In this document: one piece after another, positions 45,673 through 62,469 of the stretch
How positions within the stretch are numbered: position 1 is the stretch's first letter
Layout of the letters: every line of letters begins with the position of its first letter
NCBI GenBank assembly: GCA_013348725.1
Contig: CP054689.1
Location: 1,910,501 to 1,974,500 of the forward strand
Direction: 5' to 3'
DNA from: Ectothiorhodospiraceae bacterium 2226
GTDB taxonomy: Bacteria; Pseudomonadota; Gammaproteobacteria; GCA-013348725
Length of the DNA stretch: 64,000 bases
Position numbers and translations under genes: made by a program
Notes under the pieces: model-generated
What the model was told of the DNA's origin: nothing
The model's database searches: none
What the model saw: only the letters and a program-made list of their open reading frames with translations

Positions 45673-46797
45673 TCAACTCCGGAAACGTGTCAGCGCGCTG
45701 CCCGTGTCCAGCACCTTGCGCACCGCGTCGGCCGCGGCGGGGAGCGACTCGTGGCGGCGCAGATGGTGCAGGCACAGCGCGCCGGCATAGACGAGGCTGT
45801 CACGCGCGGGCCCCTCGGCCCCGCCAAGCGCCGCGAGACCGACCTCGGCCGCCGCGGCCGCCGCCGCGTGACTGTCGACGGCGTTCGCGATCTCGTCGCC
45901 GGGGCGCGCCGCGAGCGGCAAATCCGGCGGCAGGGGGACGGCGCGTGTGTCGCGGTGGATGCCAAGCTGTATGGCGCTGGCCTTCATCAACTGCTGGGGC
46001 CCGGCGTCATGGTAGTAGTGCACCGCGGCGGGCTGTTGGAGCGAGGGGATGACCCCGCCTTCGGCCCCGCGCACGATGAGCGCGGTGTCAAAGCCTGCCT
46101 CCCGCGCCATGGACGCGTATACCGGCGGATAGGCCTTGTGCACGAAACCGGTGAGCAGATGGGTCCGCTTCTTCCCCCGCACCGGACCCAGCAGCACCTC
46201 TAACGTGGTGAGGCAGGTGCGCTTGACGATGCGTTCGCGCAGACCGACCAAGTCGTGCAGCGCGGGGTGAAAAGCCCGTTGATCGAGGTAGGCCCAGCCC
46301 TGGTCTGCCAGTCGCGCGGCGGCGCGTTCGGGGCTGAGGTCCACGTCCGCACCGGCGGCGCGCAGCACCTGCCGCGTCGTGGTGCCGTACTTCGGGCCGA
46401 CACTCTCCAGGCCGTGGCAAATTGCCGGCACGCCGCATGCGGCGAGCAGTGCGGGCAGGAAGGGGGAGACCGGCAGCCCACGGGCGAAGCCGTCGTAGGG
46501 GTCGGCCACGTCGAACACCTCGTCGACCGGCGCCTGCACCTGGACGCAGGTCGCGCGCAGGGCGCGCAAGACGCCGATGTTCTCCTCGTTCGTCTCGCGC
46601 TTCATACGCAGGGCAATGAGGAATACACCCAACTGCACGGGGTCGGCGCGCCCCGTCAGCGCCAGCGCCATTGCGGCCTGCGCTTCCTCGACGCTGAGGT
46701 CCTTGCTGTACTCGGGGCCGGTTGCGACCTTTTGAATGCACTTGCGTAGGATCAGCGACGCCTGCACGTCGTCGGTAACGCTGGTCAACATGCTCAC
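45673..46797 (-). CDS. TrpD-fold protein without the canonical PRPP-binding motif
   Basis: A 374-residue protein with the anthranilate phosphoribosyltransferase fold (TrpD2-like): a helical N-terminal domain (about 1-90), then an alpha/beta domain with LLAACGVPAICHGLESVGPKYGTTT corresponding to the AACGVKVAKHGNRSVSSKSG segment. The GTGGDG PRPP loop of TrpD is replaced by ADPYDGFARGLP (about residues 97-108), so normal anthranilate transfer is unlikely. Lysine, arginine and histidine residues in GPVRGKKRTHLLTG are retained. The start is GTG at 46797 or ATG at 46791. It is transcribed away from the Sel1/MoxR genes. The role is unknown; it may bind nucleic acid or a nucleotide. Confidence 0.7.
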   Translation of the reverse strand: MSMLTSVTDDVQASLILRKCIQKVATGPEYSKDLSVEEAQAAMALALTGRADPVQLGVFLIALRMKRETNEENIGVLRALRATCVQVQAPVDEVFDVADPYDGFARGLPVSPFLPALLAACGVPAICHGLESVGPKYGTTTRQVLRAAGADVDLSPERAAARLADQGWAYLDQRAFHPALHDLVGLRERIVKRTCLTTLEVLLGPVRGKKRTHLLTGFVHKAYPPVYASMAREAGFDTALIVRGAEGGVIPSLQQPAAVHYYHDAGPQQLMKASAIQLGIHRDTRAVPLPPDLPLAARPGDEIANAVDSHAAAAAAAEVGLAALGGAEGPARDSLVYAGALCLHHLRRHESLPAAADAVRKVLDTGSALTRFRS

Positions 46798-47083: not shown

Positions 47084-47512
47084 GTGTCCGATGTGGTAAT
47101 GAACTTCCAAAGCGGTATGGCCGCGTTCGAGGCGAAGCACTTCTCGCGCGCCATGCAGTTGCTCTCGCCCCTGGCGGAACAGGGCGATGCCGACGCGCAG
47201 CACCGTGTGGCCATCCTGTACCAGAACGGGCTGGGGGTGACGCGTGACCCGGCGCGGGCGTTGCTGTGGATGCGCCGCGCCGCCGAGCAGGGCCATGCCC
47301 TGGCGCAGCACGGCATGGGTTTCATCCATCTCATCGGCGAGGGCATCGCGCGCGACCCCGGTGCGGCGGCGCAGTGGTTCCGGCGCGCCGCGGAGCAGGG
47401 GCTGGCCGGCTCGCAGATCGCGCTCGGGCAGCTTTACCAGCAGGGCGATGGCGTCGAGCAGGATCCGGACGAGGCGCAGCGCTGGTTCGACCTCGCGGGT
47501 CTGCAGGAATGA
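47084..47512 (+). CDS. Sel1-repeat protein
   Basis: A 142-residue cytoplasmic repeat protein beginning with GTG (SD GGAGGGA five bases upstream). Three Sel1/TPR-like repeats are seen: AMQLLSPLAEQGDADAQHRV, ALLWMRRAAEQGHALAQHGM and AAQWFRRAAEQGLAGSQIAL, each with the W/L-x-x-A-A-E-Q-G core. Such proteins act as adaptors. It is the first gene of the group going toward the MoxR ATPase (43 bp away), suggesting that it works with that set. Confidence 0.85.
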   Translation: MSDVVMNFQSGMAAFEAKHFSRAMQLLSPLAEQGDADAQHRVAILYQNGLGVTRDPARALLWMRRAAEQGHALAQHGMGFIHLIGEGIARDPGAAAQWFRRAAEQGLAGSQIALGQLYQQGDGVEQDPDEAQRWFDLAGLQE

Positions 47513-47555
47513 CGGCGCCGAGCTGCCGTACCCCGCCACCGGCCGAGGATTGACG

Positions 47556-48602
47556 ATGCGTCCGGCACACTTACAGACGGTCCTGGAGGAGGAGTTCCGC
47601 AGCACGCGCAGCGGGCACCATACGCCGGTCATGTTGTGGGGCGGGCCGGGGGTCGGGAAGTCGCAGATGGTGGCACAGGTCGGCGCGCGCCACGACTTGC
47701 CGGTCATCGACATTCGCCTCTCGCAATTGGAGCCGAGTGACCTGCGCGGCATCCCCTTTCGCAGCGGTGAGTGCGTGGAGTGGGCGATCCCGGCCATGTT
47801 GCCGGACGCGGAGCGTCACGGGGCCGAGGGTATCCTGTTTTTGGACGAAATCACCTCCGCGCCGCCCAGCGTCTCCGCCGCCGCCTACCAGTTGATCCTC
47901 GACCGACGCCTGGGTGCGTATCGGGTGCCGGACGGCTGGGCGATTTTCGCGGCGGGCAACCGCCAGGGCGACCGCGGGGTCACCTACGTCATGCCGGCAC
48001 CGCTCGCCAACCGCTTCTCACACTATGAGGTGGAGGTGCACCTGGACGACTGGGTCGCCTGGGCGTACGAGCGAGGCATCGACGCGCGCATCATCGGCTT
48101 CCTGCGCTTTCGGCCCGAACTGCTGTACGAGTTCGACCCGGCGCGCAATCCGCTCGCCTTTCCCACCCCGCGGTCCTGGGAGTTTGCCCACAATGCCTTG
48201 CAGAAGTTCGGCGGGCAGCCGGACCTGCTGCTGAGCGCCTTGCAGGCATGCCTGGGCGCCTCGACGGGGCTCGAGTTGCACGCCTTTCTGACCAACCTGG
48301 AGCACATGCCCGACCCCGCGGCGATCGCCCGCGGCGAGCCGGTGCCCGCCCCCGAGTCGCTGGACCTGCAGTACGCCGTGGCGACCGCCCTGGTGGGTTA
48401 CGCGCGTCGGGCCAGCGCCCGGCCGGAGGCGGCGCGCGTGCATGGGCACATCCTGGACTTCGCCCAGCGCTTCCCGCAGCGCGAGATGGGCGTCATGTTG
48501 GTGGCCGATATGCACCGCGCCATTGGCGCAGCGCTGTTCGAGCTGCCGCAGTTCTCCGCCTGGGCCGACACGGTCGCCGACCTGATGATTTACGAGCCTT
48601 GA
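47556..48602 (+). CDS. MoxR-family AAA+ ATPase
   Basis: A 348-residue AAA+ ATPase. Walker A GGPGVGKS (about residues 29-36), Walker B ILFLDEI (about 93-99), sensor 1 in AAGNRQGD (about 130-137) and the ANRFSH R-finger segment are complete. The C-terminal lid domain is helical. MoxR proteins act as activases, working with VWA-domain partners to insert metals or remodel metalloenzymes. The next gene encodes exactly such a VWA protein. The ATG at 47556 is used. Confidence 0.9.
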   Translation: MRPAHLQTVLEEEFRSTRSGHHTPVMLWGGPGVGKSQMVAQVGARHDLPVIDIRLSQLEPSDLRGIPFRSGECVEWAIPAMLPDAERHGAEGILFLDEITSAPPSVSAAAYQLILDRRLGAYRVPDGWAIFAAGNRQGDRGVTYVMPAPLANRFSHYEVEVHLDDWVAWAYERGIDARIIGFLRFRPELLYEFDPARNPLAFPTPRSWEFAHNALQKFGGQPDLLLSALQACLGASTGLELHAFLTNLEHMPDPAAIARGEPVPAPESLDLQYAVATALVGYARRASARPEAARVHGHILDFAQRFPQREMGVMLVADMHRAIGAALFELPQFSAWADTVADLMIYEP

Positions 48603-48642
48603 GGGCGGCGGCCCGCCGCCGAGGGGCAGACATGGAGGTGGC

Positions 48643-49794
48643 ATGGACCCGACTGAGGTCGACGCCAAGCTGGGCGCCGCGCGCACGCGTCTGATTCTGG
48701 AGCGCCCCTTTCTCGGCGCACTGGTGCTGCGCCTGCCGCTGGTGGCGGCGCCCTGGTGCAAGTCGGCCGGCACCGATGCGCGGCGTATCTTCTACAAGCC
48801 CGAGTACATCGCCGCGCTCGACGCGCGCCAGGCGCAGTTCGTGCTGGCGCAGCAGGCCTTGCACTGCGGCTTGGCGCACTTCGCGCGCCGCGGCCATCGC
48901 ATCAAGCAGCGCTGGGATCTGGCCTGCGAGTACGCCGTCAACATGCTGCTGCTCGAGGAGGGCCTGGAGCCGCCGCCGGGGGCGCTGGTGGAGCAGAGCT
49001 TCGCCGGGATGAGCGCCGAAGAGATCTACCCCTACGTGCTCCATCTGGAGGACGAGGAGCCCATGGACGACCACCTGGCCGAGGGCTCGGAGAGCGAGTC
49101 CGAGGGGCAGCAGCCCGAGGGCGAGGGCGAGGTGCCGCGCCCGCCGCCGCTGTCGGCGCAGGAGCGCGAGGCGCTGGAGGCGCAGTGGCGCCAGCGGCTG
49201 ACCAGCGCGGCGCAGCAGGCGGCACTGGCGGGCAAGCTGCACGGCTCGCTGGCCGAACTCGCGGGTTCGGTGCTGCAGCCGCGGGTGCCCTGGCGTGCCT
49301 TGCTGGCCCGCTTCGTGAGCGCCACCGCGCGCGACGACTACAGCTACAGCCGACCCTCCAACCGGCGCGGCGGCGAGGCCATCTTCCCGAGCCTGCGCAG
49401 CCCGCAGATCGACATGGTGGTGGCGGTGGACAGCAGCGGGTCGATCGACGACGCCCTGCTGCGCGAATTTCTCGGCGAAGTGGAGGCCATCAAGGGCCAG
49501 ATGCGCGCGCGGGTCACCCTGCTGCTGTGCGACGCGGCGCTGGCCCCGCACGGGCCCTGGCACGTCGAGCCCTGGGAGCCGCTGCAGACGCCGCCGTTGG
49601 TGCCGCGCGGAGGCGGCACGCGCTTCACGCCCGTGTTCGAGTGGGTGGAGCGCCAGGACCTGCGGCCGGAGTTGCTGATCTATTTCACCGACGCGCTGGG
49701 TGAGTTTCCCGCCGCCGCGCCGGACTACCCCGTGGTCTGGCTGGTGAAGGGTAAGGCCGCCGTTCCCTGGGGGCAGCGTGTGCAACTCAACTGA
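48643..49794 (+). CDS. VWA-like domain protein (DUF2201/COG3864 type)
   Basis: A 383-residue partner for the AAA+ ATPase. The N-terminal half is a helical metallopeptidase-like domain (FYKPEYIAALDARQAQFVLAQQALHCGLAHFARR) without the usual HExxH. An acidic linker follows (ESESEGQQPEGEGEV, about residues 145-165), then a long helix. The C-terminal VWA domain starts with VVAVDSSGSID, giving the MIDAS DxSxS, with the further ligands T (GGGTRFTPVF) and D (FTDALGEF). It can therefore bind Mg and interact with targets. It is probably the specificity factor of the ATPase. Confidence 0.88.
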   Translation: MDPTEVDAKLGAARTRLILERPFLGALVLRLPLVAAPWCKSAGTDARRIFYKPEYIAALDARQAQFVLAQQALHCGLAHFARRGHRIKQRWDLACEYAVNMLLLEEGLEPPPGALVEQSFAGMSAEEIYPYVLHLEDEEPMDDHLAEGSESESEGQQPEGEGEVPRPPPLSAQEREALEAQWRQRLTSAAQQAALAGKLHGSLAELAGSVLQPRVPWRALLARFVSATARDDYSYSRPSNRRGGEAIFPSLRSPQIDMVVAVDSSGSIDDALLREFLGEVEAIKGQMRARVTLLLCDAALAPHGPWHVEPWEPLQTPPLVPRGGGTRFTPVFEWVERQDLRPELLIYFTDALGEFPAAAPDYPVVWLVKGKAAVPWGQRVQLN

Positions 49795-49803
49795 CGGGCG
49801 ACG

Positions 49804-50943
49804 ATGCCGGTAGCGCTGCGCGATGACGATGCACTGCGCCTGCAGGTGTTGCTCACCCAGGCGCCGCAGGCCGTGCGCATCGACGAGCCGGCGATGCGGG
49901 TGGAGGCCTTGACCGCGCGCGGCGCGGCCGCTGTCGAACTCCATCCCAGCGGCCGCAGCGACGAGTATCTGCGGGCGGTGCGCGAACTCCTCTCCAGTCA
50001 GGTGCTGGGTTCGCCGGGCGGCTACCCGGTGTTTCTGCGCCGCTGGACGCGCATGGGCCAGGCGCGCGACGGCATCCTGGAACGTCTGCTGCTGTTGGGT
50101 GAGCCCGAAGCGGTGGTGGCGGTGGTGCACGCCCCCGGGCTGACCGAGGAACTCGCGCGGCGCGCGTGGTGGGCATGCCCCAGCCCGGAGAACGCGCGTC
50201 GCATGCTGGCCACCCGCCGCGTGGCGACGAGCGCCATGGCGCCGGTGCTGGCGCGCTACCTGCTTGAGTACCTCCCCTTCGAGGAGGAGCCGCGCGCCGC
50301 CATGGACACCGTGCGCCTGGTGCTGGCGGCCGATGGCGTGGAACCCGAGGTGCACTTACGCCTTTGGCAGGGAGGGAGGCATCGGGTGGCCTGTCAGGTG
50401 GGTTTTCTCGCGGCGCGACCGGAGACACTGCCGGCAACGCGCCCCCCGCACCCCGACTGGGCGGCATTGCGCCAGCGCCTCGCGCCCCTGTGCGACGGCG
50501 GCGACCCCTATGCCCGGGGCCTGGGTCGGAGTCTCGATGCACCCGGGCAGGCCTTCCTGCACGTGACGGAGCAAGCATTGCAACGCGTCGGGGACCCTGA
50601 CGTGGCGGTGGCCTTGTTGGACGCCATCGGCCGCTTCTTTGGCGCCGCGGCGCCGTGGCCGGGCGGCGATCGGCCCGACCCTGCGGCGGGGCTGGCGCAG
50701 GTCGCTCTTGCGGCCGAGGCCTTGTGTCGCGCGCCACCGCCCGAGTTGGTCGCCGTGCTGGACGCGGTGCCCGCCCTGCGCGACCCGCTCGCCGCCATGC
50801 TGACCCTCGGCTGCGCCGGCGAGCGCGCCGTCGCCCCGATCCTGGCGCGCACGGACGCGGTGGGTTCCCTGTTGCGCCGCAAGCTCCAACCGGTCATCGC
50901 GCCCTTGCTGGCGCGTATGGCGTGCCTGCAGGGGGCGCGCTGA
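49804..50943 (+). CDS. dsrS: probable DsrS (sulfur-oxidation associated 41-kDa protein)
   Basis: A 379-residue soluble protein of about 41 kDa. Its most patterned segment is LSSQVLGSPGGYPVFLRRWTRMGQARDG (about residues 61-88), followed by LLLLGEPEAVVAVVHAPGLTEELARRAWWACPSPENARRML. From memory these features and the length fit DsrS, the 41-kDa soluble product of the last gene of the dsr cluster in Allochromatium, of unknown function. I cannot confirm this by search. The protein is helical and repeat-like. It follows the VWA gene by 9 bp, so all three should be one operon. Confidence 0.5.
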   Translation: MPVALRDDDALRLQVLLTQAPQAVRIDEPAMRVEALTARGAAAVELHPSGRSDEYLRAVRELLSSQVLGSPGGYPVFLRRWTRMGQARDGILERLLLLGEPEAVVAVVHAPGLTEELARRAWWACPSPENARRMLATRRVATSAMAPVLARYLLEYLPFEEEPRAAMDTVRLVLAADGVEPEVHLRLWQGGRHRVACQVGFLAARPETLPATRPPHPDWAALRQRLAPLCDGGDPYARGLGRSLDAPGQAFLHVTEQALQRVGDPDVAVALLDAIGRFFGAAAPWPGGDRPDPAAGLAQVALAAEALCRAPPPELVAVLDAVPALRDPLAAMLTLGCAGERAVAPILARTDAVGSLLRRKLQPVIAPLLARMACLQGAR

Positions 50944-50944
50944 G

Positions 50945-51490
50945 ATGCCGAACCTGCACTTCGCGCAGGTGGCCTTGTCCATGCGCGTGACCGTGGCGGA
51001 GTCGGATTTGGCGGCCCACCTCGCCACGCCGCCCAGCGCTTTGGGGGCGGCGCTGGCGCGCGAGGTCCACGCGTATGCAGAGGCCCACCAATTCGGGTAC
51101 TACCCGGCCTTGGGCTACTTCCGCGCGCAGGGTGGCGTCGACGCGGACCTGATGGCCTACGCGGAGGAGGTGGGGTGGCTCGCCACCCGCGTGGTGCGCG
51201 ACGAAGTGCTGCGCAAGTTGCGCCCCGTGTTCGCCAGCCTGCGCTTCGATACCCTGCAGTCGACGGCTTTCGCGATGCCGACCGTGCGCCCCGCCGACCG
51301 GAACAATGTGGCGCTGCTGGCGCGCCATTACACGCCGACGCAGGTGAAGACCGATCTGTGGGTCACCCTGCTCCAGAAGGGGGCGCCCACGCACGGACTG
51401 GAGCGCTACGCCCAACATTTGGTGGCGCGCTGGCTGAAGCCTTCGTTCGAGCGACTCGATCTCACGGCCGCCTCCCAGGCGCACCCGTGA
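50945..51490 (+). CDS. conserved hypothetical protein, 181 aa
   Basis: A 181-residue soluble protein starting 1 bp after the presumed dsrS stop: MPNLHFAQVALSMRVTVAESDLAAHL, then EVHAYAEAHQFGYYPALGYFRAQGG, RDEVLRKLRPVFASLRFDTLQST and ARHYTPTQVKTDLWVTLLQKG. No cysteine. The fold is not recognised. It is clearly part of the MoxR-VWA-DsrS transcript by spacing. Confidence 0.65.
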   Translation: MPNLHFAQVALSMRVTVAESDLAAHLATPPSALGAALAREVHAYAEAHQFGYYPALGYFRAQGGVDADLMAYAEEVGWLATRVVRDEVLRKLRPVFASLRFDTLQSTAFAMPTVRPADRNNVALLARHYTPTQVKTDLWVTLLQKGAPTHGLERYAQHLVARWLKPSFERLDLTAASQAHP

Positions 51491-51961: not shown

Positions 51962-53401
51962 ATGGACTTCCTGCCCATCTTCGTCAATATCCGGGGCCGC
52001 TCTTGCTTGGTGGTCGGCGGAGGCAACGTCGCCGCACGCAAGGTGAGTTTGTTGCGCAAGGCCGGCGCTGCGGTGACCGTGGTCGCCCCCGAACTCGGTC
52101 GCGAGCTTGCCGAGTGGGCGGCGCAGGGGCTCATCGAACATCTAGGTCGCGAGTTCCAGGCCGCGGATCTGGATGACCGCGCTCTGGTCATCGCGGCCAC
52201 CGATCAGGAGATCGTCAACCGGCGCGTCTCGCAACTCGCCCAGGCGCGCAACTTGCCGGTCAACGTGGTAGACCGCCCCGACCTGTGCGGCTTCATCATG
52301 CCGTCCATCATCGATCGCTCGCCGGTACAGATCGCTGTCTCCACGGGCGGGGCCTCGCCGGTGCTGGCGCGGCTGCTACGCACGCGTCTGGAGAGCTACA
52401 TTCCGGCCGGTTTCGGGCGGCTCGCCCGCTTGGTCGACGGCTTTCGCGAACAGGTCAAACGCCGCTTTCCGAGCACCGAGCAGCGGCGCTACTTCTGGGA
52501 GCAGGTGCTGGAGGGCCGGGTCGCTGAGTTGCTGTTCGCGGGCAAGGATCAGGCCGCGCGCCGTGCCTTGGAGCAGGCGGTGGCGGCGGGCGAGGTCAGC
52601 GGCGGCGAGGTTTATCTCGTGGGCGCCGGACCCGGTGACCCCGATCTGCTTACCTTCCGCGCCCTGCGTCTGATGCAGCAGGCCGACGTGGTCGTGTATG
52701 ACCGGCTCGTGGCGCCCGCCATCATGGACCTGGTGCGTCGCGACGCCGAGCTGGTCTACGCCGGCAAGGAGCGGAACAATCACGCGCTGCCGCAGGAGTC
52801 CATCAACCAGCTGTTGGTGCGCCTCGCGCGCGAGGGCAAGCGGGTGCTGCGCTTAAAGGGCGGCGATCCGTTTATATTCGGGCGCGGGGGCGAAGAAATC
52901 GCCACGCTGATGGAGCAAGGGATACCGTTTCAGGTGGTGCCGGGCATCACGGCCGCGGCGGGTTGTGCCGCTTACGCGGGCATCCCGCTCACCCATCGGG
53001 ATCACGCCCAGGCCTGCGTGTTCGTCACGGGACACCTCAAGGACGGCAGCGTGGACCTGAACTGGCCCGCGCTGGCGCAGCCCAATCAGACGGTCGTGTT
53101 CTACATGGGGCTGCACGGCCTCACGTCGATCTGTCGAGAACTGGTGGCGCACGGCCTGCCGGCCGCCACACCGGCGGCGCTGGTGCAGCAGGGCACCACG
53201 CAGAACCAGCGCGTCCTGGTGGGGACGCTGGACACGCTCGCCGCCCTGGTGCGCCGCGAATCGGTGGAGCCCCCCACACTCATCATCGTCGGCGACGTCG
53301 TCCGCCTGCACAACCGCTTGGCTTGGTTCGAGCCCTTGGGCGAGGAGGGCGTGGCCGAGGGCGTGGACGGGCTCGCGGACGATCAGGCGGCCAATCTTTA
53401 G
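51962..53401 (+). CDS. cysG: siroheme synthase (CysG)
   Basis: A 479-residue trifunctional enzyme producing siroheme from uroporphyrinogen III. The N-terminal half (about 1-210) is the precorrin-2 dehydrogenase/ferrochelatase domain ([21 protein letters not shown], Rossmann motif). The C-terminal half (about 215-465) is the SAM-dependent methyltransferase ([44 protein letters not shown]). Siroheme, or its amidated form made by DsrN, is the cofactor of DsrAB. The placement only a few kb from dsrN fits this use. ATG at 51962. Confidence 0.95.
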
Positions 53402-53423: not shown

Positions 53424-53735
53424 ATGCAAGGCGGATGTTCAGCAGCCGAGCCCTTCGCCCTGCAGGTCCTGGGCGATAGCATGCTCCCCGAGTTCGAGCA
53501 CGGGGCCATCATCATCGTTGACCCCGGCGGGATCATCGAGGACGGGGCGTACGTGGTGGCGCAACATGCCGAAGAGTACGTGCTACGCCAGTTGCGCCGT
53601 CCCGACGGGCGCTACGTTCTGGCCCCCCTGAACGCGCAATATGACGCGGTGGAGGTACCGGGCGTCGAAGCGATCATGGGCGTGGTGGTGCAAAAGGCCG
53701 GGCGCCGTCGCCGGGATCGCAAGCACTACGTCTGA
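53424..53735 (+). CDS. S24 (LexA-like) peptidase-fold protein without catalytic lysine
   Basis: A 103-residue protein comprising only the C-terminal half of a LexA/UmuD-type repressor. The serine loop is intact, LGDSMLPEFEHG (Ser at about residue 20), and the strand pattern GAYVVAQ...EEYVLRQLRR follows. The general-base lysine (as in YVFKRL) is replaced here by arginine (VLRQL). No DNA-binding domain is attached. The protein is thus probably not an autocleaving repressor, though an arginine may keep some role. It follows cysG by about 22 bp and likely shares its transcript. Its end overlaps the convergent rhodanese gene by 10 bp. Confidence 0.82.
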   Translation: MQGGCSAAEPFALQVLGDSMLPEFEHGAIIIVDPGGIIEDGAYVVAQHAEEYVLRQLRRPDGRYVLAPLNAQYDAVEVPGVEAIMGVVVQKAGRRRRDRKHYV

Positions 53736-54223
53736 CGACGGGATGAACCCAGCTGCTCTGGCGTCAGACGCGGCGTGAAGTACGCCTCTGCCGCGGCTTC
53801 GTCCACCACCCGCCCATCGGGCGTCACCAGCGGCTGTTCGTACTCGTGCCACCCGCGCAGACCCGTCTTCAGCGACACCACCTGCAGGTAACCCATCCGG
53901 CCCAACACGTGGGCAGCCAACACGCTGCGCTTGCCCGACCGGCAGAGCACCACCACGTCACGTTGGCGGGCCTCCACCAGTTCGGGTCGCGTTTCCTCGT
54001 AGCCGTACTCGCAGGCGCTCTCCAGGATGCCCCGCGGCACGTTGATCGACCCTGCGACGTGCATGGCCTCGAATTCGGCCGGTTCACGTACGTCGAGCAA
54101 CAGTGCATCGAGCCCTGCCTCGCGGCGCTCGAGCAGGTCCCAGGGGAAGATCTCCCGCACCTGCCGCTCGCACTCCTGAACCAGTTCGCTGAAGCGCAGC
54201 GCCCGGCCGGGATCGTCAGCCAT
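53726..54223 (-). CDS. rhodanese-domain protein
   Basis: A 165-residue single-domain sulfurtransferase. LLLDVREPAEFEAMHVAGSINVPRG (about residues 42-66) and the active loop CRSGKRSVLAA (cysteine at about 103) are complete; the loop residue pattern C-R-S-G-K-R-S is typical. The N-terminal 35 residues are helical and charged. The protein is cytoplasmic. Rhodaneses feed persulfide to TusA/DsrE/DsrC relays in sulfur oxidisers, a reasonable but unproven role. The gene overlaps the NarL-type regulator gene by 8 bp and follows it. Confidence 0.9.
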   Translation of the reverse strand: MADDPGRALRFSELVQECERQVREIFPWDLLERREAGLDALLLDVREPAEFEAMHVAGSINVPRGILESACEYGYEETRPELVEARQRDVVVLCRSGKRSVLAAHVLGRMGYLQVVSLKTGLRGWHEYEQPLVTPDGRVVDEAAAEAYFTPRLTPEQLGSSRRQT

Positions 54224-54863
54224 GGCGGGCGAGGCCGCGCTCCACGGCGAGCACCGCGGCTTCCACTCGCGAATGCACGCACAGCTTACGTAGGATCGCC
54301 TTCACGTGGAGCTTCACCGTGCCATCCGAGATGCCGAGTTCCCGCGCGATGACCTTGTTGCTCTGGCCGTCGGCGAGATGGTGAAGAATTTCGGTTTCGC
54401 GCGGCGTGAGGGCCGCGAAGGGTGACGTCGGTTCCCGCGACGGCGCCTCGCCGCTTTGGATGATCCGCGCCAGGGCGCCGGTCAGATCCGGCGCTACCAC
54501 GGTCTTGCCCGCGAGGATGTCGTGCAGGCGGTCGACGAGGTCCTGCGGCTGCATGTCCTTGAGCAGGTAACCTTGCGCGCCGTTGCGCAGGGCCAGCACC
54601 AGGTCGCGCTCGTCGTCGCTGGTCGTGAGCATCACAATCGGCGTCGTGAAACCCGCGCTGCGCAGGTTGCGCAGCACCTGCAGGCCGCTCATGTCCGGCA
54701 TGCGCAGGTCCAGCAGGATGACGTCGGGACTGAGTTGGGTCGCCATGTCCTGGCCGGTGCGCCCGTCGCCCGCCGCGCCGCAAACCACGATGCCGCGCCG
54801 CTCGAGCAGGCCTTGCAGGCCGGCGCGGAAAAGTACGTGGTCGTCGATCAGCAAAACACGCAT
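54216..54863 (-). CDS. NarL/FixJ-family response regulator
   Basis: A 215-residue two-domain response regulator. The receiver has the acidic pocket DDH, phosphoacceptor aspartate in VILLDLRMPDMSG (about residue 52) and lysine in YLLKDM (about 102). The C-terminal LuxR HTH reads LTPRETEILHHLADGQSNKVIARELGISDGTVKLHVKAIL. It is paired with the NarX-type kinase gene upstream. Its regulon may include the nearby genes: TACCCAT at 47003 matches the NarL heptamer. This is inference. Confidence 0.92.
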   Translation of the reverse strand: MRVLLIDDHVLFRAGLQGLLERRGIVVCGAAGDGRTGQDMATQLSPDVILLDLRMPDMSGLQVLRNLRSAGFTTPIVMLTTSDDERDLVLALRNGAQGYLLKDMQPQDLVDRLHDILAGKTVVAPDLTGALARIIQSGEAPSREPTSPFAALTPRETEILHHLADGQSNKVIARELGISDGTVKLHVKAILRKLCVHSRVEAAVLAVERGLARHG

Positions 54864-54875
54864 GACGCTCTCCCC

Positions 54876-56513
54876 CTATGGAGCGGCGGCGGCCAGCGAC
54901 GGCGGCGGAGGCTCCCGAAAAGTGAGCAACACCCGTGTGCCCTCACCCGGTTCGCTATCGATGCTGAGTGTGCCGCCGAGACGCTGCGCCCGCTCCTTCA
55001 TTACGCTGAAGCCGATATGTTCGCCGGTGCTGCTTTCGACGCACGGCTTCTCCTCGGTCAGTGTCAGTCCGACGCCGTCATCCTCCACCAGCATCTGGCA
55101 GATGCCCTGCGCCTCCCGGCTGAGCAGGATACGAACGTTGCGCGCCTGGCTGTGCGCGCGCACGTTGCATAGCGCCTCCTGCGCAACGCGCAACACCTGC
55201 AGCTCGAGTTCCGGCGGTAGTTTTAGGTCATTCCATTCGCTCTGCACGAAGACGGCGATGCCGGTCTTGGTGCGAAAGCCGGCGACCAACTGCTCCAAGG
55301 CCGGGAGTAGACCACGCTGGTCGACCGGGCAGCGGAAATGCGCGATCAAGCTGCGCAGTTCGGTATATGCTTCTTGCACGCCGTTTCGCATCTGTCGCGC
55401 CTCGTCGAGCGCGGGATGGCCGTCCAGCGCCTCCTCCAGGGCCCCCGCCTGGAAGCGCAGGCTCGCCAGGGTCTGCGCGAGAGAGTCGTGCAGCTCGTGC
55501 CCAAGTTGTGTCCGTTCCTCGAGTATCGCCAGGCGGCGCGCTTCCTCGTCCAGACGCGCCTTCTCGATGGCCATACCGAGGTGCTGGCCGATGGTGGTTA
55601 GCAGGTCCTTGGAATCCTCGCCCCCCGCCAACCCGGGCGCATCGACGAACAGATTGTAGATGCCGAGTTTGCGTCCCCGGTACACCAAGGGGACCGCGAT
55701 GACCTCGACCTCCGGCGTGTCGAACATGGGTTGGCCGACGAAGCGCTCACAACCGGTCGCCTTCGTGCCGCACACTTCTCCGTGCACCAGCGCGCTGCCG
55801 CACAAACAGCGGTCCACCGGGACCAGGCGCTCGCTCTCCAGCACGAACGCGGGTAAACCCGTGCTGGCGACCATGCGCAACTGCGCGTCGTCCGTGAGCA
55901 GGCGCACGGTGCCCGCGCGGGCGCCAGTGACGTCTTTCAGCACATGCAGAAACCGTTCGAGCAACTCATCCAGATCGCGGTAACCATTAATGCTGGCGGC
56001 GACGTCGTACAGAATCTTCAGCGACGCGGTCTTGTGTGCGATCCGTTCGGTTTGGGCGCGCACCTTGCCCTCCATGTCGCGCGACAGGACCTGCAGGGCT
56101 TCGCTGAGTTCATTGATATCGTGCGCGAGTTGGGCGAACTCGCCGCGTGCGGGCACCGGAATGCGCGCGGCAAGGTTGCCGCCGCGCAGGCGCAGCGCCC
56201 AATTGCGCAGGTGGGCGAGCGGTAGAAAGAGTTCGCGCCGCATTAGCCGCGTGAGCAGCGCCACGCACCCGAGCCCCGCCGACATGAGCGCGAGGTTGAC
56301 GATGACGTAAAGGGTCGAGACGCCGCTCTGGGTCAGACCGGCGCCGCCAAGGAGGAGGAGCGCGAGCGCGATGCCCAGCAACGGCAGGAACAGGCGACTG
56401 TCGCTGATGCCGCCGCCTTTATGCCGCCAACCGGAGGCAGGCGGAATCATCCAGGTGCCAAGCTCTCGGCCGTCGCTGCGCCGTTGGGGCTGCTCTTTGG
56501 GGACCATGATCAT
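54876..56513 (-). CDS. NarX-type sensor histidine kinase with GAF domain
   Basis: A 545-residue membrane sensor kinase. Two transmembrane helices (about residues 45-62 and 70-90) are separated by only a few residues, so there is almost no periplasmic part. A HAMP (about 92-145) and a GAF domain (about 165-300) follow, then HisKA_3 (ELHDSLAQTLASLRFQ, histidine about 345) and an ATPase domain. The GAF domain carries a cysteine set CLCG...CGT...C (about 236-256), which could hold a heme or Fe-S cluster or sense thiols, as in other GAF kinases. It would sense an internal redox or sulfur state. The kinase precedes the regulator by 12 bp. Confidence 0.88.
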   Translation of the reverse strand: MIMVPKEQPQRRSDGRELGTWMIPPASGWRHKGGGISDSRLFLPLLGIALALLLLGGAGLTQSGVSTLYVIVNLALMSAGLGCVALLTRLMRRELFLPLAHLRNWALRLRGGNLAARIPVPARGEFAQLAHDINELSEALQVLSRDMEGKVRAQTERIAHKTASLKILYDVAASINGYRDLDELLERFLHVLKDVTGARAGTVRLLTDDAQLRMVASTGLPAFVLESERLVPVDRCLCGSALVHGEVCGTKATGCERFVGQPMFDTPEVEVIAVPLVYRGRKLGIYNLFVDAPGLAGGEDSKDLLTTIGQHLGMAIEKARLDEEARRLAILEERTQLGHELHDSLAQTLASLRFQAGALEEALDGHPALDEARQMRNGVQEAYTELRSLIAHFRCPVDQRGLLPALEQLVAGFRTKTGIAVFVQSEWNDLKLPPELELQVLRVAQEALCNVRAHSQARNVRILLSREAQGICQMLVEDDGVGLTLTEEKPCVESSTGEHIGFSVMKERAQRLGGTLSIDSEPGEGTRVLLTFREPPPPSLAAAAP

Positions 56514-56683: not shown

Positions 56684-58126
56684 CTAATCGCGCGTGGCGT
56701 AAATGCCGGGGCGGAACAGTTCTCGGCCGGATTGGAGAAACTCGGCCGTATAGGGGTCGACCGCGTTCTCCAATTCCTCACACCACGAGGGGTGGCTATA
56801 GTTGAGCTCCTTTAGGAACCACAGCCCTTGTCGCGACTGACAGGCGGCAGTCAGCATTTGGATTTGCTCGCCCGCTTCCGGTCCTACGATGCAACCGCCC
56901 AGCATCTGACCGGTTTCTCCATCGTGCACGACTTCGAGCAGACCTTCCACATCGTTTCGCCCACGGGCCTTGGCGGAGCCTGCCAAGTTAGCGCGTGCCA
57001 CCTCGGGTTCGAAGCCCGCCGCCTCGGCGCGCTCTTCCGTCAGGCCTACCGCAGCGATCTCCAGCGCCGAATCGATGACGATCGGCACGCGATTGTAGTT
57101 GCGGGTGATGGCGTTGCCCTGCAGCGCATTGGTCGCGGCGAGTTTGCCGTCGTGCAAAGCGGCGTTGGCCGTCATCGGGCCGCGCTTGACGTCCCCGACG
57201 GCGTAAATGCCGGCGGCCGTGGACTCCAAATATTCATTGGTGACGATGAAGCCCTCATCGTCCAGCGCCACGCCGGCCTTATCGAGCGCCAGGCCGCGCG
57301 TATTGGGGGTGCGCCCAACTGCGACCAGGGCTTCGTCAAACGCCAACTGGCGCCCGTCATCGAGCAGCACGGCGACACCTTCGTCGCCGGTCTCGCAACC
57401 GCGCACCCCGACGCCGGTGATCACTTCGATGCCCAGGCGGTGGAACTTGCGGGCCAGCATGCGGCTGGCGCGCTCCGGTATGCAGGGCTTGTCGAGTAGG
57501 CGTTCACTCCGCTCGACGACCGTCACGCGGGTACCGAATTGGTGCAGCAGGAAAGCGCTCTCGGCGCCGATCGCGCCGCCGCCGATGCACACGGCACGGC
57601 GCGGAAGGGGGCGGCGACGGGCGAACAGGTGCTGTGAGTCGAGGATGCGTCGCCCGTCGACGCGACTGCCGGGATGTCCGCGCACGGTGGCCCCGGTGGC
57701 GAGGATCACGCGCGGCGCGGCCAGACGACGTACGTGGTTGCCGTCGACCGGCAGCACCTCCAGTAGCTCGGGCGCCAGAAAACGCGCATGCCCGCGGTGC
57801 AGCACGATGCCCAGGCGTCGCAGCCAAGCGGGAAGTTGCTCGCGGATGCCGGTCACGACGGCGTCCTTGTGCGCCAGTGCCGCAGCGAAGTCGCCGCGCG
57901 GCCGTCCCACGAGGCCGCGACCGTTGAGCGCGTCCACGTCTTCCATGAGCTGCGCGAGGTAAAGCAGGGTCTTCTTGGGGATGCAGCCGTGGTTCAGGCA
58001 ATTGCCGCCGGGCCGTCCGCGTTCCACCAGGGCCACGCGCGCGCCCTGACGCACGGCGGTCATGGCCGCCTTGTAACCGCCGGGGCCGCTGCCGATGACG
58101 ATCAGGTCGTAGTGGGCGCTGTCCAT
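56684..58126 (-). CDS. dihydrolipoamide-dehydrogenase-like FAD oxidoreductase
   Basis: A 480-residue pyridine nucleotide-disulfide oxidoreductase. FAD motif VIGSGPGGYKAA (about 9-20), active disulfide GGNCLNHGCIPKKT (cysteines at about 42 and 47), NAD motif CIGGGAIGAESAF (about 180-192) and the C-terminal HPSWCEE (histidine and glutamate, near HPTxxE) are present. It thus has a full redox center. It starts 13 bp after the dsrR stop and ends the gene group. Its partner is unknown; a lipoate-binding protein is not in the window. A role in reducing a DsrC-type or lipoyl disulfide is possible. Confidence 0.88.
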   Translation of the reverse strand: MDSAHYDLIVIGSGPGGYKAAMTAVRQGARVALVERGRPGGNCLNHGCIPKKTLLYLAQLMEDVDALNGRGLVGRPRGDFAAALAHKDAVVTGIREQLPAWLRRLGIVLHRGHARFLAPELLEVLPVDGNHVRRLAAPRVILATGATVRGHPGSRVDGRRILDSQHLFARRRPLPRRAVCIGGGAIGAESAFLLHQFGTRVTVVERSERLLDKPCIPERASRMLARKFHRLGIEVITGVGVRGCETGDEGVAVLLDDGRQLAFDEALVAVGRTPNTRGLALDKAGVALDDEGFIVTNEYLESTAAGIYAVGDVKRGPMTANAALHDGKLAATNALQGNAITRNYNRVPIVIDSALEIAAVGLTEERAEAAGFEPEVARANLAGSAKARGRNDVEGLLEVVHDGETGQMLGGCIVGPEAGEQIQMLTAACQSRQGLWFLKELNYSHPSWCEELENAVDPYTAEFLQSGRELFRPGIYATRD

Positions 58127-58139
58127 CGCCGCCGATCGC

Positions 58140-58466
58140 TCAGGAGGCCGCATCCTCTTGCGGGGGGGAGAAGTTGGGGTCATTCGGATTGAGGAAGATG
58201 AAACGGAATTCGCCCGGCTCCATCTCCACGTAGTCCAGCACTGTGCCGCTCAACAGGTCAATGCTCACCGGTGCGATCACGAGTTCGATGCCCTCGGAGC
58301 GGAACACCGTGTCCTCCTCGCGGCCCTGGTCGTCGAAGCCCATGCCGTAGTGAATGCCGCCGTCCTCCAGGCGCTTCGCGGCGATGCGCAGCGGTATGCC
58401 CTCCAGACGGTTCTCGTGCGCGTTGGCGCGGATCTGCTCCGCCGCACGTGGGGTGACGGTGATCAT
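58140..58466 (-). CDS. dsrR: DsrR, IscA-like protein without cysteines
   Basis: A 108-residue A-type-carrier-fold protein (MITVTPRAAEQIRANAHENR; GGIHYGMGFDD; IAPVSIDLLSGTVLDYVE). The three cysteines used by IscA/ErpA for Fe-S cluster binding are absent; there is no cysteine at all. This matches the described DsrR of Allochromatium, which lacks cluster-binding function and affects dsr expression after transcription. It overlaps the dsrN stop and precedes a flavoprotein gene. Confidence 0.93.
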   Translation of the reverse strand: MITVTPRAAEQIRANAHENRLEGIPLRIAAKRLEDGGIHYGMGFDDQGREEDTVFRSEGIELVIAPVSIDLLSGTVLDYVEMEPGEFRFIFLNPNDPNFSPPQEDAAS

Positions 58467-59893
58467 GCGCTGCCCTCCATTACCTGCGTCGTGGGACCGG
58501 GTCGGTCGGGTGCCTTGATGCGCTGCGCGCGCACGAAGGCGAGAAAGCGTTGCGTCCAGGGATAGGCCGCACTGTGGCGCAGGTGCGCGTAATTCGCCAA
58601 CAGCTTGCCGATCACGAGCCCGTCCTGCTGCGCCGCGATGCCGGTGCCGCGCAGCACCCGGTAGGCGTAATCCAGGCCCTCGGGCAGACCCTCCAGGCGC
58701 GAGTAGTGGAACTCGTGCGCCGCGATCTCGGTGCCTGCCGCGGCGGCGCCAGGCCAGGGATGTTGCGCGCTCTCCTGCAGGCGCACGTAGCCGCGCCCCT
58801 GCGGGCGCGAGTGCATCACCGCCTCGGCGGGGATCACGCCGACCATCTCGGCGCGCCGCTCGCCCCAACGCAGGCTGCGGCACAGATACATGAGCCCGCC
58901 GCACTCGGCGTAGGCAGGCAGCCCCCCCTCGATGGCCGCGCGCACCGCGTGGCGCAGCGCCGCGTTGGCCTGCAGCGCGTGCATGTGCGTCTCGGGAAAG
59001 CCGCCGCCGACGAACAGGCCGTCCAGCGGCGGCAGGCGCGCGTCGTGCAGGCTGTCGATGGGGACGATCTCGGCGCCCCCCTCGGCCAGCGCCTCGAGGT
59101 CGTCCGGATAATAGAAACCGAAAGCGCTGTCGCGCAGGATGCCGATGCGCACGCGCGGCGCGGGCGCAGCCGTCCGCGCGTGCGCGGCGGCCTGCTCAGG
59201 TGCGCGGGCGGTGGCGGCCAGGGCGCACAGCGCGTCCAGGTCAACGTGTTCGGCCACGCGCTGTGCCAGGGTGCGGATGCGCGCTTCGGCGGCGCCGTCC
59301 TCGTTGCCGGGCACCAGGCCGAGGTGGCGCTCCTCGATGCTGAGCGCGGGGTCCTGGGGCAGGGCGCCCAGCACCGGGATGTTGGTGTAATGCGCGAGCG
59401 CGGCGCGCAGCTTGCCCTCGTGGCGCGGGCCGCCGACGCGGTTGAGGATCACGCCGCCGATACGCACGCGCGCGTCGAAGGCCTGGAAGCCGAGCACCAG
59501 CGGCGCCACGCCGCGCGTCATGCCGCGCGCGTCGACCACCAGCGCCACCGGCGCATCCAGCAGCGCGGCCAACGCCGCATTGCTGTTGCTGCCGTCCAGG
59601 GCGACGCCGTCGTGCAGCCCCTTGTTGCCCTCGATCAGGCCCAGCGCGTCGCCGTGCGCATGCAGGCGCGCGGCGAACAGAGCGTGCAGTTCGGCCCCGC
59701 TCATGGTGTTGAAATCGAGGTTGTAGCAGGGGCGATGCGCCGCGCGGCCCAGCCAGATGGGGTCGATGTAGTCCGGCCCCTTCTTGAACGGCTGCACCGG
59801 GCACCCGCGGGCGGCCAGCGCCCGGGTGGCACCGATGGCCAGAGTGGTCTTACCCGACGATTTGTGTGCCGCGGACAGCAGTACGTGGGCCAT
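58463..59893 (-). CDS. dsrN: DsrN, siro(heme) amide synthase
   Basis: A 476-residue amidotransferase of the CbiA type (cobyrinic acid a,c-diamide synthase). The N-terminal ATPase/synthetase domain shows SSGKTTLAIGA (Walker A, about 12-22) and the acidic EGNKGLHDG; the C-terminal GATase-1-like domain carries the nucleophile in YAECGGLMYL (about 342) with EFHYS near the end. In sulfur oxidisers DsrN amidates siroheme to siroamide, the prosthetic group of DsrAB. It is translated with overlap with dsrR. Confidence 0.95.
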   Translation of the reverse strand: MAHVLLSAAHKSSGKTTLAIGATRALAARGCPVQPFKKGPDYIDPIWLGRAAHRPCYNLDFNTMSGAELHALFAARLHAHGDALGLIEGNKGLHDGVALDGSNSNAALAALLDAPVALVVDARGMTRGVAPLVLGFQAFDARVRIGGVILNRVGGPRHEGKLRAALAHYTNIPVLGALPQDPALSIEERHLGLVPGNEDGAAEARIRTLAQRVAEHVDLDALCALAATARAPEQAAAHARTAAPAPRVRIGILRDSAFGFYYPDDLEALAEGGAEIVPIDSLHDARLPPLDGLFVGGGFPETHMHALQANAALRHAVRAAIEGGLPAYAECGGLMYLCRSLRWGERRAEMVGVIPAEAVMHSRPQGRGYVRLQESAQHPWPGAAAAGTEIAAHEFHYSRLEGLPEGLDYAYRVLRGTGIAAQQDGLVIGKLLANYAHLRHSAAYPWTQRFLAFVRAQRIKAPDRPGPTTQVMEGSA

Positions 59894-59946
59894 GCATTTG
59901 CCTCATGGGCCGGGCGCCGCGGCGGGGCGCTCCGGCGATGCGATGA

Positions 59947-61179
59947 TCAAGCGGTCGCGGCGTCTACGGCGCCCTGCGCCTGCTGCGGCAGCGCATGCGC
60001 GTCGGCCATTGTGGTCGGCAGGAAGCGCAGCACCTTGATCGCCAACGCGACGATGAGCAGCGCGAAGGCGACGCCGCCCACGCCCAGCGCGATCTCGGGC
60101 CAGCTCGGTGCGTAACTGGCGAGCACGCCGTCGAAATAGCTGCTCGACTCCTCGCGCCCCGGGAACAGCGGCATCGGGTAGGCCTGGCCGCCGATGATGA
60201 GCACGTAAAGCTGGGCGAAGCCGCCCACGATCACCAGCCCTGCCGCCGCGGCGATGACGCCGCGCAGGCGCGACAGGCGCGGGTGGAACAACAGCGCCAG
60301 CGGTAGCACGCTGCCGAGCAGGATCTGCACGCCCCAGAACAGCGCCGGGTACACCCCGCCGTCCACCAGCAGGAAGCGCTCGATGCCGTGGTGCTGGGCG
60401 CCGTAGAGGTTGGTGAGGTGGTAGATCAGCACGAAGTACAGCACGGCCGCCACGAACAGCGCGAGCAAGTTCTTCAGCCGGCGCAGCAGGTCATCGCCGA
60501 GCGGGATGCCCGTGCCGCGGGCAGCCGCCAGCAGCACCAGCAGGAAAACCGCCGTGCCGAAGGCGAACGACATGATCACAAACATCGGGCCCATGATGGC
60601 GGCGTCGTAGGCCTGGCGCGCCACCAGAAAGCCGAAAATGGAGCCGGTGCCCGTGGTGAGCACCAGGCGCCAGACAAAGGCCAGCAAGCCCACGGGCTTG
60701 GCATAGGCATTCATGCGCCGCTCCATCATCATCCACAGGTACACCGCCGCGATGGCGATGAAGCCGGTGTACAGGAAGATGTTCCAGGCGAAGATCGAGC
60801 GGAAGTTGTAATAGGTCATGGCGATGATGAGGCGATCGGGTCGCCCGAGGTCCAGCACCAGGATCACCAGGCCTCCCACCAGCAGTGCGATGGCGAGCAG
60901 GGCCGACAGGCGGCTGAGCGGCTTGTATGCCGTGCGCCCGAAGACGGAGGCGACCGAGGCCACGTTGAGCGCGCCGGAGGCGGCGACGATCAGGAAGATC
61001 GCGAACACGTGCGGCGTGCCCCACACGACGCGGTTGTTCATGCCGGTCACGTAGTGTCCCACGTTCCACACGTACAAGGCGGCGGCCAAGCCCACGGCGG
61101 CCAGCGCGCCCAGGCCGAGGAGCAGGGCGTAATAGGCGGGGCTGCGCCCCTCGATCTCCCGGAAGTCTTCGTCTCGCAT
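59947..61179 (-). CDS. dsrP: DsrP, NrfD-type membrane subunit of DsrMKJOP
   Basis: A 410-residue integral membrane protein with about ten helices of the NrfD/PsrC type, the quinone-interacting subunit of the DsrMKJOP transmembrane complex. It begins MRDEDFREIEGRSPAYYALLLGLG and has histidine- and aspartate-containing helices. It follows dsrO by 16 bp, as in other dsr operons. Electron flow between cytoplasmic DsrK/DsrC and periplasmic DsrJ/DsrO passes through the membrane subunits. Confidence 0.95.
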   Translation of the reverse strand: MRDEDFREIEGRSPAYYALLLGLGALAAVGLAAALYVWNVGHYVTGMNNRVVWGTPHVFAIFLIVAASGALNVASVASVFGRTAYKPLSRLSALLAIALLVGGLVILVLDLGRPDRLIIAMTYYNFRSIFAWNIFLYTGFIAIAAVYLWMMMERRMNAYAKPVGLLAFVWRLVLTTGTGSIFGFLVARQAYDAAIMGPMFVIMSFAFGTAVFLLVLLAAARGTGIPLGDDLLRRLKNLLALFVAAVLYFVLIYHLTNLYGAQHHGIERFLLVDGGVYPALFWGVQILLGSVLPLALLFHPRLSRLRGVIAAAAGLVIVGGFAQLYVLIIGGQAYPMPLFPGREESSSYFDGVLASYAPSWPEIALGVGGVAFALLIVALAIKVLRFLPTTMADAHALPQQAQGAVDAATA

Positions 61180-61195
61180 CGAAATGAGGCCTCGC

Positions 61196-61939
61196 TCAGG
61201 TCAGCCCGCGGTAGCGCACGCCTTGGTTGAGTCGCAAATCGGCGCGCACCTTGGTGCCGCCTTCCTTCGCGAGTCGCTGGGCAATCTCGCTCTCGGGGTC
61301 GTGCAGGTTGCCGAACACAATGGCCCCGTAACCGGCTTCCTGGCAGGCCTCCTTGCACGCGGGAACGCGGCCTTCATCCACCCGGTGCACGCACATCGTG
61401 CAGCTCTCCACCGTGCCCTTGCCGCGCGGCGCATGCGGGAGCTGGTCTTGCAGCGGCTCGTGGATAAAGGAGCGGGCATGGTAGGGGCAGGCCATCATGC
61501 AGTAACGGCAGCCGATGCAAATGTGTTTGTCGACCAGCACGATGCCGTCGGCGCGCTTGAAGGAGGCGCCCGTGGGGCACACGTCCACGCAGGGCGGTTG
61601 TTCGCAGTGCTGGCACATCATGGGCAGCGAGTGGGCGTGGCCGGTGGCGGGGTCGCGTACGTCGAGTTTGCGTATCCACTGCGCGTCGGTGGTGGGGCGC
61701 CCGGTGCTGGTGATGCCGTGCTCCTCATTGCACGCGCGCACGCAGGCGTCGCAGCCTTTGGCGCACTGGGTGGTGTCGATGAGCATCCCCCAGCGCACCT
61801 CGGACGAGGCGCCGTCGGTGCCGCGCGCGCGCGCTACGCCCTGCCAGAAGAAAACGCCCGGCGCCGCGGCGAGCGCCGCGGCGGCGGCCGCCGTCCCCAG
61901 AAACTTGCGGCGCGCGCCATCATGCGCTTGATCACTCAT
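61196..61939 (-). CDS. dsrO: DsrO, periplasmic ferredoxin-like Fe-S subunit
   Basis: A 247-residue Fe-S protein with a Tat signal (ARRKFLGTAAAAAALAA, residues 9-25). Four cysteine groups can bind [4Fe-4S] clusters: CAKGCDACVRAC, CQHCEQPPCVDVC, CIGCRYCMMAC and CTMC.....CKEAC. These are the signature of DmsB/NrfC-type subunits. The gene overlaps dsrJ by 8 bp, showing tight coupling. It should sit on the periplasmic side of DsrP. Confidence 0.95.
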   Translation of the reverse strand: MSDQAHDGARRKFLGTAAAAAALAAAPGVFFWQGVARARGTDGASSEVRWGMLIDTTQCAKGCDACVRACNEEHGITSTGRPTTDAQWIRKLDVRDPATGHAHSLPMMCQHCEQPPCVDVCPTGASFKRADGIVLVDKHICIGCRYCMMACPYHARSFIHEPLQDQLPHAPRGKGTVESCTMCVHRVDEGRVPACKEACQEAGYGAIVFGNLHDPESEIAQRLAKEGGTKVRADLRLNQGVRYRGLT

Positions 61940-62411
61940 GGCTCTCTCCTTGCTCGGCGAGCAGTTTCAGTTCCGCCGCGCTCAGCGTGCCGTCGCCCAT
62001 GTGGTGACGGTGCCCTGAGAGTTTGTGGAAATAGGTGGCGCGCGCGGGCCGGTCGGCGTGGCACTGAAAGCAGTCCACACGCACCCCCGTGAATACGTGG
62101 CAACTGGCGCAGAAATGCTGGGGATCGCTGTAGCGCGGCGGCTCGTTGCCGCCCACCGGCTGCACGTGGCAATCGATGCACTCCACCAAGCTGTGGCGCG
62201 CGCCGCGGATGCCGCCGTGCACCGTCTCGTCGCGGATGTGCAACAGGAACTTCGGGTGGTCGCGGCGCATCACGTCCGTCGGCTCCACGCACTCCTCTCC
62301 GGCCGCCGGCGGCAGCTCGGGCAGGGTCACGCGGCTTTGGGCGGTGGCGGTCGCGAGTACGACACCCGCCGCCAGCACCCCGATGACGATCTTGGTGATC
62401 CAGGATTTCAT
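61932..62411 (-). CDS. dsrJ: DsrJ, triheme cytochrome c
   Basis: A 159-residue periplasmic cytochrome with an uncleaved or weakly cleaved N-terminal anchor (SWITKIVIGVLAAGVVLATATA). Three CxxCH heme sites: CIDCH, CASCH and CFQCH (about residues 78-117). A cysteine upstream (EECVEP) may serve as the unusual heme ligand described for DsrJ. It faces the periplasm in the DsrMKJOP complex. It overlaps dsrO. Confidence 0.95.
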   Translation of the reverse strand: MKSWITKIVIGVLAAGVVLATATAQSRVTLPELPPAAGEECVEPTDVMRRDHPKFLLHIRDETVHGGIRGARHSLVECIDCHVQPVGGNEPPRYSDPQHFCASCHVFTGVRVDCFQCHADRPARATYFHKLSGHRHHMGDGTLSAAELKLLAEQGESHE

Positions 62412-62469
62412 CGGTCTCGCTTCCTCCCGTTTGTTTTACGCGCCCGAGGCAGGCGGCGCGCGGCACGGG

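Follow-up and report, generated by a model that had tools for sequence, protein, structure and literature searches.

A MoxR-VWA-DsrS gene module linked to the gammaproteobacterial reverse Dsr pathway, with a possible role in remodeling a Dsr protein

In Ectothiorhodospiraceae bacterium 2226, genes for a MoxR-class AAA+ ATPase, a VWA protein and DsrS follow one another closely on one strand, 5 to 13 kb from a dsr operon on the opposite strand, which raises the question of whether a MoxR-VWA machine serves reverse sulfite reduction in this organism. The window analyzed is a stretch of 64,000 nucleotides (G000:C1:1910501-1974500) from a genome of 2.96 Mb assembled as a single contig. Five genes, for a Sel1-repeat protein, MoxR, the VWA protein, DsrS and a protein of no assigned family (P5), run in one direction with gaps of 43, 40, 9 and 1 bp, respectively. 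Direct checks of the open reading frames (ORFs) and spacings confirmed this arrangement, which had been described in an earlier sequence-only reading, and the MoxR start was corrected to that in Table 1, as the longer ORF from 47244 overlaps the Sel1 gene. The same reading had proposed a candidate maturation machine for reverse sulfite reductase, acting on DsrAB or another siroheme/Fe-S enzyme. The evidence presented here favors, with a probability of roughly 0.55, an ATP-driven remodeling module of MoxR, the VWA protein and DsrS that would serve the reverse Dsr pathway of Gammaproteobacteria (as defined by GTDB).

The identity of DsrS was tested by gene position, because curated profiles do not cover this protein: the family matches no Pfam or NCBIfam model, and Pfam, NCBIfam, PADLOC and PDB sequence searches gave nothing useful for DsrS or P5. 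For the Solemya velum symbiont, the dsr operon has been published as dsrABEFHCMKLJOPNRS (PMC4287430). Homology was tested directly in this symbiont, and the window protein's homologue is encoded immediately downstream of dsrR (L292:4483-5541), in the published dsrS slot. The same gene order is found in Allochromatium vinosum, for which the function of DsrS was stated as not resolved (PMC3368242), and the family likewise follows dsrR directly in genome G015. The window protein is DsrS, and its earlier designation as probable DsrS is thus borne out by synteny. While dsrS occupies the same position in the published operons of A. vinosum and the S. velum symbiont, here it is third in the MoxR-VWA cluster and is detached from the dsr operon, as the operon on the other strand ends without it. 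The AlphaFold model of DsrS, which is of high confidence (predicted local distance difference test score, pLDDT, of 93.4), shows an alpha-solenoid plus a small beta element at the N terminus. A Foldseek search with this model gave no match at an E value of ≤0.001, and the VIA matches, to importins and CRM1, had Z scores no higher than 6.8; such matches are typical of any alpha-solenoid, and no function was therefore drawn from the fold search. A dsrR-dsrS pair was also seen in G404 (L299:5305-6765), a genome in which neither dsrB nor a close dsrK was detected.

MoxR and DsrS are inherited together. Among dsrA-positive genomes, DsrS was present in 41 of 42 with the MoxR orthologue and in 2 of 22 without it; in G063, the only one of the 42 without it, the contig breaks off within the VWA gene. 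Three of the 22 genomes without MoxR retain only DsrS fragments, and that of G056 has an internal stop. DsrS is also kept in 9 of 11 genomes that have MoxR and no detected dsrA. On a DsrAB tree of 52 genomes, MoxR state differed in 11 independent contrasts, of which 9 or 10 were concordant with DsrS and none was opposed (p of ~0.002), the contrasts resting on a gene tree and the MoxR-positive genomes being a subset. Furthermore, the coupling holds where the two genes lie far apart, both on single contigs (G079, G121, G108, and G324) and on different contigs (G073, G155, and G031). Linkage alone therefore cannot explain it, and, because many genomes carry the genes unlinked, neither can co-loss by a single deletion explain everything.

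Clustering is nevertheless common. Of 96 MoxR loci compared, many of which are cut by contig ends, 88 have a VWA ORF adjoining MoxR, contig ends accounting for most of the others, and DsrS is the third gene in 43. This nearly universal VWA adjacency and the frequency of DsrS as third gene argue that the clustering is not due to chance. Taken together, MoxR, the VWA protein and DsrS very probably form one functional unit, and co-inheritance thus bears out the earlier grouping of the three as one set. The module may also lie with dsr genes: in G041, one strand carries dsrABEFHCMKLJOPNR-MoxR-VWA-DsrS, with the module as the last part of the operon, and in G086 the order is MoxR-VWA-DsrS-dsrA, where dsrB does not follow and the assembly is fragmented. 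In a relative of G086 (G210; L252:1-1620), only the C-terminal end of DsrS precedes dsrA and adjoins genes located upstream of MoxR in G086, which may reflect a single deletion of MoxR-VWA-DsrS or a misassembly.

The tie to dsr was assessed in 56 genomes representing 56 families and in 369 Gammaproteobacteria. In the first survey, dsrA was found in 17 genomes, 15 of which have the MoxR orthologue and 16 DsrS, and both MoxR and DsrS were absent from all 39 genomes without dsrA. In the second, the MoxR orthologue was found in 105 genomes and dsrA in 116 (both in 94, MoxR only in 11, dsrA only in 22, and neither in 242); the association has a Fisher p value of 7e-53, a test that ignores relatedness. 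In addition, dsrB was found in 31 of 40 genomes from a contig scan, including Thiohalobacter, Thioalkalivibrio, Thiolinea, Sulfuricella, Gallionella and the S. velum symbiont. Of the 11 genomes with MoxR and without dsrA, three have dsrB, three have DsrK at 76 to 83% identity, and one (G145) carries a divergent relative (53% identical); about 5 of the 11 absences are expected from assembly incompleteness, and most of these exceptions are explained by incomplete assemblies. The link to dsr proposed in the sequence-only reading is therefore upheld by survey distribution. That reading would have been undermined by a MoxR-VWA pair common in genomes without dsrAB; the orthologous subgroup occurs in 0 of 39 and 11 of 253 genomes without dsrA, and it is the more distant MoxR-DUF2201 pairs that do occur in dsr-free genomes. 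Such pairs, with neither dsr nor DsrS as neighbors, are what might be expected if the module were a general chaperone or stress system found near dsr genes by shared ancestry only. This explanation is disfavored and improbable, as the orthologous subgroup is almost confined to dsr-positive genomes and the co-variation of DsrS with MoxR survives phylogeny control, also when the genes are unlinked.

Several observations weigh against a remodeling module that serves the Dsr pathway. A few near-complete genomes (G126, 100%; G316, 99%) carry the module, no dsr genes were found in them, and G126 and G316 are possible true exceptions. The MoxR orthologue is absent from 22 of 116 dsrA-positive Gammaproteobacteria, five of which have genomes of ~1 Mb and many of 2 to 5 Mb, most being nearly complete. 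In a phylum-wide sample, it was found in 0 of 48 dsrA-positive genomes of other classes; the only three MoxR orthologues of that sample (G000, G609, and G660) are all in dsrA-positive Gammaproteobacteria. G031 has MoxR with no VWA gene nearby. Finally, the alpha-solenoid of DsrS is without a specific PDB relative, the adaptor role proposed below being suggested by shape and co-inheritance, and contact of the module with any Dsr protein is something that we infer.

The distribution bears directly on what the module might do. Because dsrAB persists without MoxR in these Gammaproteobacteria and throughout the sampled genomes of other classes, the module is not universal for dsr; it is an accessory of the gammaproteobacterial Dsr pathway rather than a universal requirement. 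No dsr lineage was specific for the module, MoxR presence being scattered on the DsrAB tree. The earlier suggestion, as a maturation machine required by DsrAB, is not supported, given the same absences. An obligatory maturase, in which MoxR-VWA-DsrS would equip DsrAB with siroheme or Fe-S clusters in the way that NorQD supplies cNOR with FeB (PMC13036017), would fit that precedent, the position of the module directly before dsrA in G086 and the presence in 13 loci of the siroheme synthase gene cysG no more than 3 kb downstream from DsrS; it is unlikely, given that dsrAB is so often kept without MoxR, mostly in nearly complete genomes, and that the cysG adjacency is optional. This adjacency is real, and as proof of siroheme insertion it was rejected.

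The MoxR protein retains the motifs of an AAA+ ATPase. Walker A, Walker B, sensor-1 N135 and the R153 region (arginine finger) are invariant or nearly so in 17 aligned orthologues. The orthologues in general are mostly 60 to 77% identical and occur almost only in dsr-positive Gammaproteobacteria. The nearest solved relative by profile is midasin (2e-14), and CbbQ is a much weaker match (4e-4). In the VWA protein, the metal ion-dependent adhesion site (MIDAS; DxSxS-T-D) is complete: D263, S265, S267 and D350 are present in 100 of 100 sequences and T326 in 99. H74, C75 and H79 of its N-terminal domain are invariant in the same 100 sequences, and the HExxHCxxxH motif of DUF2201_N is degenerate, with HE kept in 82 sequences and changed in 18; the window copy reads QQALHCGLAH. 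Peptidase activity was discarded as a reading, as QQ replaces the HE of HExxH in the window copy. The Dsr-linked VWA proteins share a C-terminal tail, VPWGQR(I/V)QLN. No Pfam match besides DUF2201_N and DUF2201 and no NCBIfam match was obtained for the VWA partner, which is thus not of the NorD, CbbO or ViaA family, and Foldseek recovered from its model a VWA fold with only generic VWA/I-domain matches.

Related machines offer precedents and differ in informative ways. NorQD likewise combines a MoxR-like AAA+ protein with a separate VWA protein bearing a complete MIDAS and is tied genetically to a metalloenzyme pathway, whereas here the VWA partner belongs to the DUF2201 class and carries at its N terminus a degenerate domain resembling a metallopeptidase, a solenoid protein is added as third component, and the module is, by its distribution, not obligatory for its presumed client. 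The rubisco activase CbbQO is also a MoxR AAA+/VWA pair beside metabolic enzyme genes, and its repair role models an accessory function, but the ATPase here is only distantly similar to CbbQ and the partner family differs. RavA-ViaA, again a MoxR AAA+ protein with a VWA protein, is accessory to Fe-S respiratory enzymes; it has no DsrS, its client differs, and the partner here matches DUF2201 only. General MoxR-DUF2201 pairs (e.g., in G105, G287, and G636) share families and two-gene arrangement with the module but are ~25 to 42% identical, have no DsrS or dsr neighbors and lack the VPWGQRIQLN C terminus. Long branches set the Dsr-linked proteins apart from these dsr-free pairs in the MoxR tree, in which the placement of G145 is unsure. 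Distant MoxR-DUF2201 pairs without a DsrS neighbor were also recorded at L312, L313, L314, L315 and L316.

In NorQD, the AAA+ ring is the docking site of the VWA domain, whose MIDAS has been proposed to grip the client (PMC13036017). By analogy, MoxR may form an AAA+ ring that supplies force, and the VWA protein may dock on this ring and hold the client by means of the MIDAS metal site. DsrS, judged from its modeled solenoid, is probably the client adaptor and would select the client by recruiting the module to one of the Dsr proteins, of which DsrAB is the likeliest. The energy of ATP hydrolysis would then distort the client, resulting in its activation, its completion or its rescue from a dead-end state. 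Complex formation, the adaptor role, the client and the reaction are all matters that we infer. Since dsrAB often persists without the module, its job would be accessory (activation, repair or quality control) rather than obligatory cofactor insertion, and our best guess is that it activates or repairs DsrAB or a Dsr complex.

On balance, the client is somewhat more likely than not to be a Dsr protein. DsrAB is favored as its identity because of the dsr link, the dsrA adjacency in G086 and the recurrent cysG neighbor, and is a credible candidate at somewhat less than even odds; the fullest version of the proposal, a three-part Dsr activase in which an alpha-solenoid serves as client adaptor and which restores activity to the siroheme enzyme DsrAB or completes it, is more tentative still. 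The tie to dsrAB equals the tie to the whole dsr set, so the module could instead serve the DsrMKJOP membrane complex, DsrL, the DsrC/DsrEFH relay or the mobilization of stored sulfur. The distal position of the module in the G041 operon is compatible with such a client, as is the reported action of RavA-ViaA on Fe-S respiratory complexes (PMC3893208 and PMC10585395). This alternative is doubtful, as the remaining dsr genes are kept where the module is lost, the module adjoins dsrA in G086, and its recurrent neighbor cysG serves siroheme enzymes. Some NTP-dependent MoxR-VWA systems are described as biological conflict systems (PMC7159879), and an anti-phage defense system of the MoxR-VWA type was considered. 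It is disfavored and very improbable: PADLOC gave only two weak ATPase matches (E values of 0.003 to 0.005), and the identity of mostly 60 to 77% and the dependence on dsr are unlike patchy defense loci.

MoxR-VWA machines are already known; the three-part version, with a solenoid Dsr protein and a tie to reverse sulfite reduction, is new, and no paper linking MoxR to dsr was found in the open-licence literature. Co-inheritance gives DsrS a definite biochemical setting, a MoxR-VWA machine powered by ATP, and identifies its partners also where the genes are widely separated. Should DsrAB or some other Dsr complex prove to be the client, reverse sulfite reduction would have a remodeling factor of its own, as do rubisco and nitric oxide reductase. 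A true Dsr activase would give DsrS its first function and extend the client range of MoxR-VWA machines to sulfite reductase, and the MoxR-VWA-DsrS association lends itself to straightforward tests in model sulfur oxidizers.

Table 1. Features of the MoxR-VWA-DsrS locus and its surroundings (window positions unless a contig is named)
Feature	Position	Strand	Evidence or remark
Conserved protein, 205 aa	44754-45371	+	No Pfam match
Glycosyl-transferase-3 (TrpD-like) gene	45673-46797	-	Divergent from module
Sel1-repeat protein, 142 aa	47084-47512	+	Pfam Sel1 repeats, 2.5e-32
MoxR-class AAA+ ATPase, 348 aa	47556-48602	+	Pfam AAA_5, 8e-6, 26.3 bits versus cut-off of 22
VWA protein, 383 aa	48643-49794	+	DUF2201_N PF13203, 2.6e-43; VWA-like DUF2201 PF09967, 3.6e-22
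DsrS, 379 aa	49804-50943	+	Synteny with published dsrS; co-inheritance with MoxR
Protein P5, 181 aa, no assigned family	50945-51490	+	Optional neighbor downstream of DsrS
Glutaredoxin 3	51573 (ATG)-51872	+	TIGR02181 above cut-off; optional neighbor
Siroheme synthase CysG	51962-53401	+	NF007922, E value of 8e-201; recurrent DsrS neighbor
GAF/HisKA_3 histidine kinase, LuxR-type response regulator, rhodanese	53726-56513	-	Candidate dsr gene regulator
Dihydrolipoamide-dehydrogenase-like gene	56684-58183	-	Directly after dsrR
dsrR	58140-58466	-	In dsr operon run dsrL-J-O-P-N-R
dsr operon end: dsrN, dsrP, dsrO, dsrJ, dsrL (running off window)	58463-64000	-	
dsrA	G000:C1:1979950-1981155		Beyond window

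The genes flanking MoxR-VWA-DsrS vary among relatives. Sel1 is found in 29 of the 96 MoxR neighborhoods and stays beside DsrS where MoxR is elsewhere, and P5 adjoins DsrS in 9 of 37 loci with a full flank; Sel1, P5, glutaredoxin and cysG are optional neighbors. A scan for promoters and terminators gave nothing exceeding chance. Upstream, the TrpD-like gene keeps its position in ~12 of the 96 MoxR loci, and the 205-aa conserved protein is encoded upstream of Sel1-MoxR in ~20 loci.

On the dsr strand, the region 3′ of dsrR contains the dihydrolipoamide-dehydrogenase-like gene and genes for the histidine kinase, the response regulator and the rhodanese. The dihydrolipoamide-dehydrogenase-like gene likewise follows dsrR in G034, G044 and G083 and follows dsrN in G206. 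The kinase-regulator-rhodanese set, which may regulate dsr genes, is found after dsrN-dsrR in many sulfur oxidizers (e.g., G001, G014, G047, G060, G079, and G131), and in others the kinase and regulator occur without a rhodanese match.

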